Origin: Lyophyllum atratum
Lineage: Eukaryota > Basidiomycota > Agaricomycetes > Agaricales > Lyophyllaceae
DNA: 64,000 bases
NCBI GenBank assembly: GCA_014905825.1
Contig: JACGCN010000007.1
Coordinates: 1,612,001 to 1,676,000, forward strand
Direction of reading: 5' to 3'
Below the pieces are notes generated by a model. That model was not told the origin of the DNA, did not search any database, and worked only from the letters and a program-made list of their open reading frames with translations. Below are positions 1-3,475 of the stretch, piece after piece (positions within the stretch are counted from its first letter, which is position 1; each line of letters opens with the position of its first letter). The translations under genes were made by a program, and so were the position numbers.

Positions 1-943
1 TACGACGACGAGGCAGATAGAATACGTCTACGCTACACTCTGAAAAGGTTCTGCGTCACGCGGAACCTTGCTGAAATTTACTGTTACTATACACTTTTAT
101 GCTACACCTACACCGATTTCGGGCCACTTCAACCCCATACGCCACTCGCCGCTGATCATCATCATGTAACTCGCCACAGTTGGAGATATTCTGTATTTTT
201 TTTTCATACAAGAGTCTCATGAGTCAGTGTAGATCTATTCTGGCTCATAGCGGGAGCAGATAACTTGCGTTGTCCTGCACTCCCGTATCTTAGACTGCCG
301 GTGAGCCAAACACCGGACTCCACTTTCTTCCCCCCGCGTTACCTCGTTAACTTTCTAATGACATGGTACAGCCCATCTTGGGCTGGTGTTACTCAGCAAG
401 GGCGACATGCCACGAGAGCGCCGTCTCTATATAGTGGAGTATGATAAATCAACATGCACCATCTTGTTGGATACACCTGATGTATTTCACGGGTTTTAGG
501 CATGCAAGAACAGTTATAGCCTACCATCGTGGTCTACGGACGCTGTTCCCGGCTACAGAAAGAGTGTGGCAGACGAGATTAAGCACAAAAACCCTTTTAC
601 CAGGCTGCTATGTTGCGTAGATGAACGTACTTCTCTTGATATGTGCTTCAATAGCTGCAGATAAGATACGAGAGCTTGCTAGGCTGGCATGTAAGGTAGT
701 GAAGATCGCGAGTATTGTAGTGAATTCAGCACAAAGTGACGACAGTTGGAAGATAAGATGCAGACGATCAAATGATGGCTGTGCAACGTGCGACGTTTTG
801 TCCACGGCCTTCCCGCCAACCTTACAGTGGTCAGGCAGTCCTCAAACGGGCCTATGATCAACTGATTGAGACCTTCTGTCTTCTGTCTTCTGTCTCTCCC
901 GTGTCATCCGGGACATGTCATGACCCATCTATGGAGGCACTCG
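1..943. other. No supportable gene; AT/GC-mixed intergenic DNA
   Basis: Short overlapping open frames occur near 608-1029 on both strands. None has a recognisable domain, intron-compatible continuation or coding-like composition. This stretch is the left flank of the LTR element; its last five bases (ACTCG, 939-943) are the left copy of the element's target-site duplication. Confidence 0.5.
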
Positions 944-1159
944 TGTTGGAGTTGACCGGCCGAGGCCCAAAAGCTCTATATTTAGATTTGTTTATTTTCC
1001 GATCATTGACTTGCCGCCTCCTGCCGTAGGCATTTTTCCGTCTCATTTCTATTCCTTTGCACATATATATTTGACGAGCTACGTACTGGTACAGTAGTGG
1101 AATACATTATCTTAACCCCCCCTCACCTTGTCCCGTCCCCTCGAGCCTGGTTTCCAACA
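944..1159 (+). repeat. 5' LTR
   Basis: This 216-bp direct repeat equals 2265-2480. It has short inverted ends, TGTTGGA and TCCAACA. An AT-rich TATA-like stretch (acatatatatttg) lies near 1061-1073 and could be the core promoter driving gag. Confidence 0.92.
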
Positions 1160-1171
1160 GGTTATGGGCCC
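1160..1171 (+). other. Primer-binding site for half initiator tRNA-Met
   Basis: GGTTATGGGCCC starts at the first base after the 5' LTR. It is the reverse complement of GGGCCCAUAACC, the anticodon-arm segment of eukaryotic initiator tRNA-Met. Copia-type elements prime minus-strand DNA from this internal half-tRNA fragment rather than from the tRNA 3' end. Confidence 0.8.
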
Positions 1172-1239
1172 CGAGCTTTCACTGTTCACCATCATTCGCA
1201 TCACCCTCGGCTATCTTATCTTGATTATCTAATCGTCTC

Positions 1240-1376
1240 GGAAGCCTCCGACTGTACTGGAGCATCGTATCGAAAGCCGTCGACTGTACTGACGCACGGA
1301 AGCCTCCGACTGTACTGGAGCACGGAAGCCGCAGACTGTACTTGCGCAACGGAAGCCCTCGATTGTACTGAGGCAC
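1240..1376 (+). repeat. Five tandem ~26-bp hairpin units in the gag leader
   Basis: Five units follow each other with spacing 32, 26, 26 and 27. Each reads (g)gaaagc or ggaagc, then four variable bases, a conserved nine-base core GAYTGTACT, then four variable bases and CA. The two variable blocks are perfectly complementary in every unit: CTCC/GGAG (1246-1262), CGTC/GACG (1278-1294), CTCC/GGAG (1304-1320), CGCA/TGCG (1330-1346), CCTC/GAGG (1357-1373). Four different stems around one conserved loop is the signature of selected RNA hairpins. The array sits between the primer site and the gag ATG, where packaging or dimerisation signals of retroelement RNAs usually lie. Confidence 0.85.
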
Positions 1377-1386
1377 GGAATTTAGA

Positions 1387-2166
1387 ATGGGAGAGAAAGG
1401 TTTCACGAAGTTGGACGACGAGAATTATGACTCGTGGGAATTTGAGATTCGGGCGGAGTTGAAGAGGAAGCAGGTTTTGGCATTGGTGGAGGGAAAGGAA
1501 TCGCGGCCCGTGGGGAGCGATGGTTCGAAGGCGGTCAAGGGATGGATCGCGAAGAGGGATCTGGCATCTGCGGAGATTGTACGGAGATTGGACCCTGGTC
1601 AGTTTGCACACGTTCGCGGTTATGACGAGGACCCGGCCGGAATGTGGGAGAGGTTACGGGATTTTCATCAGGCGTCGGGTTTGGGGAGCATCATTGCCAT
1701 GTGGGGCAAGTTTACATCATTCAGGAAGGCCGACGAGGTCTCTATGCGCACGCACATCGGCAACATTCGCACGCTCGCCGACAAGCTCGATCATCTTGGC
1801 GAAACCCCCTCGAACGCGCTCACTATTGCCGTTCTATTCAAATCCCTTCCCCCCGCTTACAGCTCGCTTATCGTCTCACTCGACTCACACGAGAAATCCA
1901 CCGACCTTGATTTCGTCATCGGTCGCATCCTAAATGAAGAAACACGTCTTGCCGACAATTGCAGCAACCACACCCACGGCATCGAAACTAGCGCGCTGCA
2001 TGCTGATTCGCGCCCACGCAACAAAAACATCGACAAATCAAAGATCCGATGCTTCCGATGCAACGAATTTGGCCATTACCAAAGCGAGTGCAAGGAACCG
2101 GCCCCTGCCGCGCCGGAACCCAAGGCTATGGTCGCATCGACATCGCGCGTCACATACGCCCTCTAA
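1387..2166 (+). CDS. gag: Copia-type Gag nucleocapsid protein
   Basis: This is an intact 259-residue open frame with an ATG 14 bp after the hairpin array. The N-terminal part (about residues 5-35) has the aromatic-rich F..L....Y..W pattern of Copia Gag proteins (DUF4219/UBN2-type). The middle, about residues 60-190, matches the helical Gag core in pattern, with conserved W/L positions. Near the C terminus is one CCHC zinc knuckle (CFRCNEFGHYQSEC, C-x2-C-x4-H-x4-C, about residues 220-233) for RNA binding. The frame ends before any protease or integrase motif. The protein should assemble into virus-like particles and bind element RNA. Replication enzymes must come in trans. The intact frame agrees with recent activity. 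Confidence 0.9.
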   Translation: MGEKGFTKLDDENYDSWEFEIRAELKRKQVLALVEGKESRPVGSDGSKAVKGWIAKRDLASAEIVRRLDPGQFAHVRGYDEDPAGMWERLRDFHQASGLGSIIAMWGKFTSFRKADEVSMRTHIGNIRTLADKLDHLGETPSNALTIAVLFKSLPPAYSSLIVSLDSHEKSTDLDFVIGRILNEETRLADNCSNHTHGIETSALHADSRPRNKNIDKSKIRCFRCNEFGHYQSECKEPAPAAPEPKAMVASTSRVTYAL

Positions 2167-2253
2167 AATTGAAGGCTCTCGAAGTCTGTGGGAGCAGTTT
2201 TATTTTCTGTTTATTTTCTCATTTTATTCTGATTTTCGTTTTGTGTCTCGCCG

Positions 2254-2264
2254 GTCTGTGGGAG
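2254..2264 (+). other. Polypurine tract, with an upstream second copy at 2184-2194
   Basis: GTCTGTGGGAG abuts the 3' LTR exactly, as a plus-strand primer site should. The same 11 bases occur 70 bp upstream (2184-2194), separated by a T-rich spacer. The upstream copy could be a duplicated or second plus-strand initiation site. Confidence 0.6.
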
Positions 2265-2480
2265 TGTTGGAGTTGACCGGCCGAGGCCCAAAAGCTCTAT
2301 ATTTAGATTTGTTTATTTTCCGATCATTGACTTGCCGCCTCCTGCCGTAGGCATTTTTCCGTCTCATTTCTATTCCTTTGCACATATATATTTGACGAGC
2401 TACGTACTGGTACAGTAGTGGAATACATTATCTTAACCCCCCCTCACCTTGTCCCGTCCCCTCGAGCCTGGTTTCCAACA
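2265..2480 (+). repeat. 3' LTR
   Basis: No mismatch to 944-1159 was seen over 216 bp. It is followed by the right copy of the target duplication, ACTCG (2481-2485). Confidence 0.92.
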
Positions 2481-2485
2481 ACTCG

Positions 2486-3475
2486 AATTTAATTTCTCGC
2501 CGAGGATCTACGGACGCATCTGATCATGATCACGTCCAAAACCCTCTTCAGAATTCGAATTCCCCCTTCACCACGAATACATGGTACGATACGAGTACCG
2601 GTCCCAAGTCGGCACAAATAGCACACGGCCTTCAATATATCCTCCATTTGATAAATGCCACTCACGCAGCGAACTTGTGGCGTACGCGAAGAGCGACCTG
2701 AGTTACATGCGAATAAGGATGTGCGACTTGAACTTACTCGATTGTATTGACCCCCAGGGCCGCCGAACGTGGCCCGCGGCTATGCGAGCAGGCGCTCACT
2801 AAATTACAGCCTCCGAGCTGTCCTAAGTACCCACCTTCACTCCTCCCATCCCTGGGTCATGCTCAGGGTGACTCGATATCGTATCCGTAGATCCTCGCTT
2901 AGCGGTGACCGAACACGCTCCCCAAATTAGACTACCATTAATGTTTCTGGGTTGTATGAACGAAAGGGAGCCGTGGTACGCCCGTGCTAGATGTAAAGAG
3001 GCCATGACGACCGTGCAGGGCCGCGACGCTATCGGGAAAGGGTTTGTGGCTAAGTGCAGAGATACACCAACTATATGCGCATACAGCGCTGAACGGTGTC
3101 CAAAAATATCGACTGGCGGAGTCCCTTCCAAAACGCCACCGGAGAAACCTTAGCGTCAGACGTCTGGCTCATATTTCAAGGACATAATGGACAAGCCGTC
3201 GATTGTATTGCGGTGTGTATGACGAGGAGAAACAGTTTTAATTGCGGTAAAAATACAATGACCCATGAAGAGAAGGAAGGAGACGCAGCTGCGACGGTGA
3301 GCGGCATCCTGATACAACGCGGCACACGAAAGGGAGGGGTAGGGGGGTAGTAAAGAACAGCGTAATGTCCAGCTCTATGGGGGGGAGGGAATGATATGCA
3401 AGGTGGGGTAATATTAGCGGCATCACAGGTGCGCGGAAATAAGTCCAGTAGATATAAAGCGGTGAAGGGGTATAT
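2486..3475. other. Intergenic, no supportable gene; contains a 14-bp inverted repeat
   Basis: No ORF here has recognisable homology. A perfect 14-bp inverted repeat (CGAGGATCTACGGA at 2501-2514, complement at 2884-2897) brackets about 400 bp and could be the ends of a degraded element. The right part is the 3' flank of the polyol dehydrogenase gene. Confidence 0.4.

Follow-up and report, generated by a model that had tools for sequence, protein, structure and literature searches.

A tandem array of covarying hairpins shared by a gag-only copia-type retrotransposon of Lyophyllum atratum and a shorter family without a Gag match: a candidate packaging signal

The locus described here raises the question of what a row of similar hairpins does in the leader of a retrotransposon that encodes Gag alone. 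The window analysed, a 64,000-nucleotide stretch of Lyophyllum atratum DNA (contig JACGCN010000007.1), contains a complete long terminal repeat (LTR) retrotransposon at positions 944-2480, a gag-only, copia-type element of 1537 bp that we call family A. Between its primer-binding site and its Gag open reading frame (ORF), at 1246-1373, lie five tandem hairpins with 4-bp arms and a 9-nt loop, GAYTGTACT, and the arms are complementary in 5/5. An earlier reading of the DNA made without database searches (the sequence-only reading) had reported five units with arms CTCC/GGAG, CGTC/GACG, CTCC/GGAG, CGCA/TGCG and CCTC/GAGG, exactly as we find them. A second, shorter family in the same genome, family B, carries a homologous array. 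That the hairpins are real, as the earlier observation implied, is well supported by comparison of the copies. The units are listed below with their family B homologues.

1246..1262, plus strand: hairpin 1, CTCC-GACTGTACT-GGAG, loop at 1250-1258; homologous B unit CCCC/GGGG (double change)
1278..1294, plus strand: hairpin 2, CGTC-GACTGTACT-GACG, loop at 1282-1290; homologous B unit CGCC/GGCG (double change)
1304..1320, plus strand: hairpin 3, CTCC-GACTGTACT-GGAG, loop at 1308-1316; stem identical in B
1330..1346, plus strand: hairpin 4, CGCA-GACTGTACT-TGCG, loop at 1334-1342; homologous B unit CGCC/GGCG (double change)
1357..1373, plus strand: hairpin 5, CCTC-GATTGTACT-GAGG, loop at 1361-1369; stem identical in B

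The pattern GAYTGTAYT has nine matches in the window against 1.5 expected, a number reached by 0/100 shuffles, and perfect 4-9-4 hairpins occupy 0.43% of window positions (273/63,983). Viral contigs served as chance controls: when they were scanned with the unit pattern stripped of its stem requirement, 0/29 matches had complementary arms, and with a two-unit pattern 0/94 matches had even one complementary stem. Across the units of both families the loop is better described as GANNGYACT than as GAYTGTACT, and unit B2 (GAGAGTCCA) deviates further. Single-hairpin folding adds a fifth pair, G-U, between the first and last loop bases in 8/9 unit types, and this closing pair is present in 10/10 units of the unit alignment, from which B2 was left out; with it, the loop becomes seven bases, ANNGYAC in typical units. 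The spacer is purine-rich and conserved, with GRAAGC before and CA after the hairpin. Downstream of the element, at 2740-2748 and 3201-3209, the loop pattern is matched twice more, here with T as the eighth base (GATTGTATT); the arms of the second, CGTC/GCGG, are not complementary, and it is probably a chance match.

A DNA search of the organism's own genome (64.8-Mb assembly) gave 28 places with similarity to the array, comprising 15 array-bearing A copies, 12 family B copies and one A fragment. The sequence-only reading had held that stems without complementarity in other copies would count against it. In the 27 array-bearing copies, each with five units, 133 units were scored, and 120 were fully Watson-Crick and 130 Watson-Crick or G-U paired. 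The remaining two units, missed by the loop pattern and seen in the alignment, both belong to the decayed copy L022; one, CACA/TGCG, is broken, and the other, TCTC/GAGG, has a G-U pair. Within families, stem differences are all C-to-T or G-to-A and so produce mostly G-U pairs and few breaks, as expected of decaying insertions. Both families probably moved fairly recently, because LTR identity is high (97.7-100% for A and 91.6-100% for B among copies in which the script detected an LTR pair), clear 5-bp target duplications flank 8/15 A copies and 8/12 B copies in the flanks inspected, and ten genomic matches span all 259 Gag residues without a stop.

The array is the best-preserved part of both non-autonomous families. 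By BLAST, A and B are 84% identical over 147 columns of the array, and otherwise share 22 identical bases at the junction of LTR end and primer site plus a few short stretches. Local alignment of each region against 300 mononucleotide shuffles gave a score of 180 for the array against 25 in shuffles (reached by 0/300), 42 against 25 for the LTRs (1/300) and 65 against 43 for the region downstream of the array (1/300); the segment from primer site to array scored 14 against 15, reached by 219/300. We thus read family B as having probably arisen long ago from an A-like element and diverged nearly everywhere outside the array and the terminal signals. An element lacking a Gag match has kept the array better than any other part, for which a cis-acting role is the simplest account; the presence of the array in that family supports such a role.

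Comparison of the five A units of the window with the five B units of copy L068 shows how the stems have changed. Between A and B 6/40 stem bases differ; these form exactly three pairs of 20, with no one-sided differences. The compensatory changes from A to B are T-A to C-G in hairpins 1 and 2 and A-T to C-G in hairpin 4. In a simple model that takes the three 5'-side changes as given, three 3'-side changes would land on the partner positions and re-establish pairing with a probability of ~3e-5. Every one of the 40 pair cells in ten unit types is paired, and both sides vary at three of the four stem positions. In an alignment of 27 rows (22 distinct), in which related rows inflate such covariation measures, standard pairs fill 99.1% of pair cells. 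Shuffling the columns lowers this to 94.2%, and displacing the partner by 1-3 columns lowers it to 30-43%. Both sides have changed in 30 cells, against 12.7 in column shuffles and 0-1 in displaced controls, and the covariation score is 0.203, against 0.110 and at most 0.056, respectively. Each of these three values was reached by 0/500 column shuffles. The earlier proposal that selection maintains a hairpin while leaving stem sequence free thus gains support from compensatory changes both between homologous A and B units and between units.

Our preferred reading, which we hold at a probability of about 0.5, is that the array is a multivalent cis-acting signal in the genomic transcript of the gag-only element, active as RNA and read by a protein, most likely the Gag of family A, and that family B uses it too. 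Each hairpin would display a common loop, typically GANNGYACU and mostly closed by G-U, on a stem of free sequence set in a conserved purine-rich spacer. The zinc-knuckle Gag of family A would read the units, so that Gag particles select this RNA, and family B, by keeping the array, would be packaged into family A's particles. Both families would borrow reverse transcriptase and integrase from copia elements that share their primer-binding site. The array is probably a tag that loads A and B RNA into particles; for Gag-directed packaging as such, the most likely of its possible roles, we see roughly even odds. A packaging-type signal of a retrotransposon in unusual multivalent form is a plausible description. 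A bolder version can be offered only tentatively: the tag would be portable and dose-counting, with particles of the gag-only element counting tandem hairpins, and the second element would have been stripped to LTRs, primer site and tag, giving a parasitism of three levels (copia pol donor, gag-only shell donor and passenger) linked through a single hairpin code.

Several results weigh against the preferred reading. Free-energy folding fails to yield the tandem hairpins. The leaders are less stable than their shuffles (z +3.41 for A and +3.55 for B), with 200/200 shuffles of A and 100/100 of B folding at least as well as the leader. The tandem form of the array has -16.3 kcal/mol in A and -23.5 in B against optima of -34.0 and -40.0, that is, it lies 17.7 and 16.5 kcal/mol above the computed optimum, and a pairing probability above 0.5 is found for hairpin 4 alone in the full A leader, while none exceeds 0.05 in the B leader. 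Either the hairpins are held by protein, or they pair locally during transcription, or the energy model falls short, or something other than free RNA is active. The orthologous covariation amounts to three events across one split, and by two measures the 27-row alignment does not exceed its shuffles: it has 3 double-changed pairs where shuffles give 2.8, and 11 further pair types where they give 12.8. The loop, moreover, is not the slowest-changing part of the unit: A and B differ at 9/45 loop, 6/40 stem and 5/45 spacer bases. The earlier claim of a fixed loop thus finds partial support: six of nine positions hold in typical units, but loops differ between A and B no less often than spacers. 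Four of the nine loop differences sit in B2; without it 5/36 remain, all at loop positions 3, 4 or 6. Because the loop is not the slowest-changing part, the spacer may belong to the recognised site. Lastly, another gag-only family, whose Gag is related, lacks the array. That family (L056:1224-2536, and L058 from 1223) is ~1.3 kb long, with LTRs of ~156 bp, a 290-residue Gag ~30% identical to that of family A, and a different primer site.

The strongest alternative, though unlikely, is that a host RNA-binding protein or the reverse transcriptase recognises the array, which would then serve RNA stability, localisation or reverse transcription and not Gag packaging. The array follows soon after the primer site in both families, and many loops contain UGUA, which we take to be the core of PUF-protein sites; UGUA varies, however, with CGCA, AGTA and CGTA also occurring. 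A general role in reverse transcription is countered by a survey of other elements. With one mismatch allowed, the junction of LTR end and primer site (CAACAGGTTATGGGCC) has 90 occurrences in the genome; 27 of these were counted as A or B copies or fragments, and 40 of the other 63 leaders were inspected. Two or more GANNGYACT loops were found in 0/40, a sample that includes several copies of one family and two leaders (L123 and L125) matching the primer site partly, and in which an array with another loop would escape. Ty1 carries several cis-acting structures that serve packaging and priming and lie close to its 5' end and primer site (PMC4974528), which lends the alternative some weight.

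The sequence-only reading had also considered a dimerisation signal. Here the palindrome GUAC would make kissing contacts between the loops of two genomic RNAs, the copies raising avidity. All five A loops of the window contain GUAC, and Ty1 is proposed to begin dimerisation via hairpins with complementary 7-nt loop motifs (PMC5454406). Among the B units, however, the palindrome is found only in B4, B5 and B6; the other two have GACCGCACT or GACTGCACT, and GAGAGTCCA. Because GUAC is kept in just 3/5 B units, protein recognition explains the loops better than loop-loop contact, and dimerisation would further leave unexplained the conserved bases outside GUAC (the first G and A and the last T of typical units). 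The loss of GUAC from 2/5 B units weakens this proposal, which we regard as quite unlikely. Pairing between loop and LTR was considered and rejected: GGTACAGT in the window's LTR complements the loop ACTGTACT, but the LTR of copy L020 lacks it, and in B a long LTR partner exists solely for the GAATGTACT loop.

A role in DNA, as repeated transcription-factor sites or small cruciforms, is very unlikely. It would accommodate the tandem spacing near 26 bp, the inverted arms, which are present in DNA too, spacers no less conserved than the loops, which would fit a repeated binding site, and hairpins that RNA folding does not favour. Yet a site recognised by its sequence would keep its arms, and here the arms change in matched pairs. 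Four-base arms with nine-base loops also make poor cruciforms.

We give little credence to a leader device controlling Gag translation or, in B, to a short translated frame through the array. In A the array does end shortly before the Gag start (1387), and in 8/11 B copies examined a frame of 84-104 codons is open through it; against this, family B has no Gag match, the frame is missing in 3/11 copies, and single-base insertions in the spacers distinguish copies. The longest frame within the B interior is 38-104 codons, and in those 8/11 copies it is the one through the array; four B copies have open frames of 195-274 codons that enter from flanking DNA through the LTR, and two of these longer frames have no Pfam match. 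The start-to-start spacings of the window's units (32, 26, 26 and 27) are not multiples of three, so a single reading frame through all units, and with it a peptide repeat, is excluded. Barely credible is a neutral relic of tandem duplication, with the A-B similarity owed to recent exchange: the units are evident duplicates of one another, but matched double changes separate both units and families, and we see no sign of recent exchange because the B-specific stems and the B2 loop occur in all 12 B copies (later point changes in L033 and L034 aside) and in no A copy.

Known systems offer partial precedents for such an array. A tandem hairpin array in an LTR-retrotransposon leader was not found in a literature search at the level of titles and the openings of abstracts. 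CsrB-type RNAs bind through many hairpins with GGA loops. The array resembles these in that one RNA would bind many copies of one protein; CsrB-type RNAs differ in being bacterial regulatory RNAs that sequester protein. The closest precedent for the architecture is the alphavirus packaging signal, which a review (PMC5869531) describes as having eight stem-loops with GGG at their tips and in which loop structure, motif and number affect packaging specificity; the same review puts the evidence against its being required as equal to the evidence for it. The likeness lies in several stem-loops with a common tip motif, the difference in an unrelated virus group and another loop. The remark in the sequence-only reading that no array of this form had been described was, in view of this signal, too strong as a general statement. 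The Ty1 leader is similar in that a copia-type element has its cis signals for packaging and dimerisation close to the primer site, and differs in having a pseudoknot and two complementary-loop hairpins, not one loop on varied tandem stems (PMC5454406, PMC4974528). How short non-autonomous LTR elements are selected for packaging is an open question, and a packaging element of TRIM elements is described in one paper as conserved in secondary structure only and hence hard to identify (PMC4558846). The candidate signal described here is a compact repeat array, backed by paired changes and common to a Gag-coding family and one without a Gag match, and would involve ~145 nt of RNA and one protein.

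Outside families A and B the array was sought in several ways. Genome DNA searches with A and B sequence returned A and B copies and fragments only, and among these searches and the 40 sampled leaders no pol-bearing element with the array was found. A relaxed pattern search counted 135 matches (19 in the control); about the first 100 were listed, and the last contigs were covered by the DNA searches alone. In viral contigs a Gag profile found no relatives, and the two pattern scans gave chance matches alone. The closest relative of the Gag, at 68% identity, is the metagenomic protein P0001, encoded on a contig of 1102 bases. P0001 starts with MEALDCTEAREPEALHCTEALEP ahead of its Gag start, which reads as two translated units. 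Because hairpin 5 translates in one frame as EALDCTEAR, a peptide that recurs in P0001, the DNA of P0001 most likely carries two array units in frame with Gag; pairing is compatible, as judged from the protein alone. A third candidate unit, KPSTALRQA, resembles A2/B3 and was not counted, as on our reading it cannot form four perfect pairs in that register. The first 45 residues of P0001 as a query matched only P0001. The motif was seen in 0/44 other Gag relatives, many of which were called from the Gag start or are partial and so are little informative. Relatives with organism names come from Mycena, Roridomyces, Pholiota and Agrocybe; one of them, P0013 of Mycena sanguinolenta, bears the public name "RxLR effector candidate protein", and by Pfam it is a copia-type Gag with a zinc knuckle.

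The family A element of the window has the following features apart from the hairpins.

939..943, plus strand: target-site duplication ACTCG, left copy; repeated directly after the 3' LTR
944..1159, plus strand: 5' LTR (TGTTGG...CCAACA), 100% identical to the 3' LTR in a 217-bp match
1160..1173, plus strand: primer-binding site GGTTATGGGCCCCG, directly adjoining the 5' LTR end
1387..2166, plus strand: Gag ORF, 259 residues, with a copia-type Gag domain (PF14223, Retrotran_gag_2, E 5e-28) and a CCHC zinc knuckle (PF00098, E 2e-4)
2258..2264, plus strand: polypurine-tract-like GTGGGAG before the 3' LTR, by sequence; the identical seven bases precede family B's 3' LTR
2265..2480, plus strand: 3' LTR, from the LTR self-match
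2481..2485, plus strand: target-site duplication ACTCG, right copy, matching the left copy

The Gag start lies 13 bases downstream of the array. Just 98 bp separate the Gag stop from the 3' LTR, which leaves no room for pol; together with the zinc-knuckle Gag and the identical LTR matches this bears out the earlier description of the element as gag-only. The primer site is presumably the complement of the anticodon arm of tRNA-iMet. A tRNA gene exactly complementary to it was not found when a 12-base tRNA-iMet match was sought; the assignment fits statements on fungal Helenus TRIMs (PMC10886601). An ATG within the primer site starts a 22-codon upstream ORF (1164-1232) that ends just 5' of the hairpin array, and in another element, L109, the primer-site ATG starts a long Gag-like frame. 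In copy L013 the stretch before the primer site is unlike the other family A LTRs inspected and holds a perfect palindrome, GGTACTGTACAGTACC. Rfam covariance models gave no match at E up to 1 in window 900-2600. TR-GAG elements of plants, terminal-repeat retrotransposons with a GAG domain, have LTRs, a primer site, a polypurine tract and a Gag ORF, and no pol. Family A has all of these, with the LTR pair flanked by a target duplication, and differs from the plant elements in being fungal and in carrying a covarying hairpin array in its leader.

Family B (for example L068 and L070) is ~908 bp long with LTRs of ~142 bp, and a Gag search of the genome listed no match inside any of its elements. 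TRIM elements are defined by short LTRs, a short interior without retroelement proteins, and target duplications. Family B shows each of these features. The fungal Helenus TRIMs are reported to have 5-bp duplications and mostly anticodon-loop primer sites, with tRNA-iMet dominant, and are apparently mobilised by copia (PMC10886601). Family B is like them in being short, without a Gag match and flanked by 5-bp duplications, and unlike them in having the hairpin array and in an ARAGORN tRNA count of 0; a tRNA-like sequence in the LTR, a Helenus feature, was sought with ARAGORN in window 900-2520 and in L068 600-1600, where it found 0 tRNAs, although a degenerate remnant could escape. For the relation between A and B the closest precedent is BARE2, which cannot make Gag and is packaged in BARE1 particles, with packaging and dimerisation signals conserved; BARE2 has lost its ORF start codon and may still translate the rest (PMC3735527). 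As a Gag-less copia-type passenger, which the preferred reading would make it, family B is like BARE2; it differs in being too short for pol, and in the same excerpt no repeated hairpin array is noted for BARE2 (PMC3735527). Repeats break up B copy L030, and no primer site was recognised by the script's pattern in B copy L033. Most B copies have, at both ends of the array, an extra hairpin-like CCTC/GAGG, with a 7-nt loop at one and a 4-nt loop at the other.
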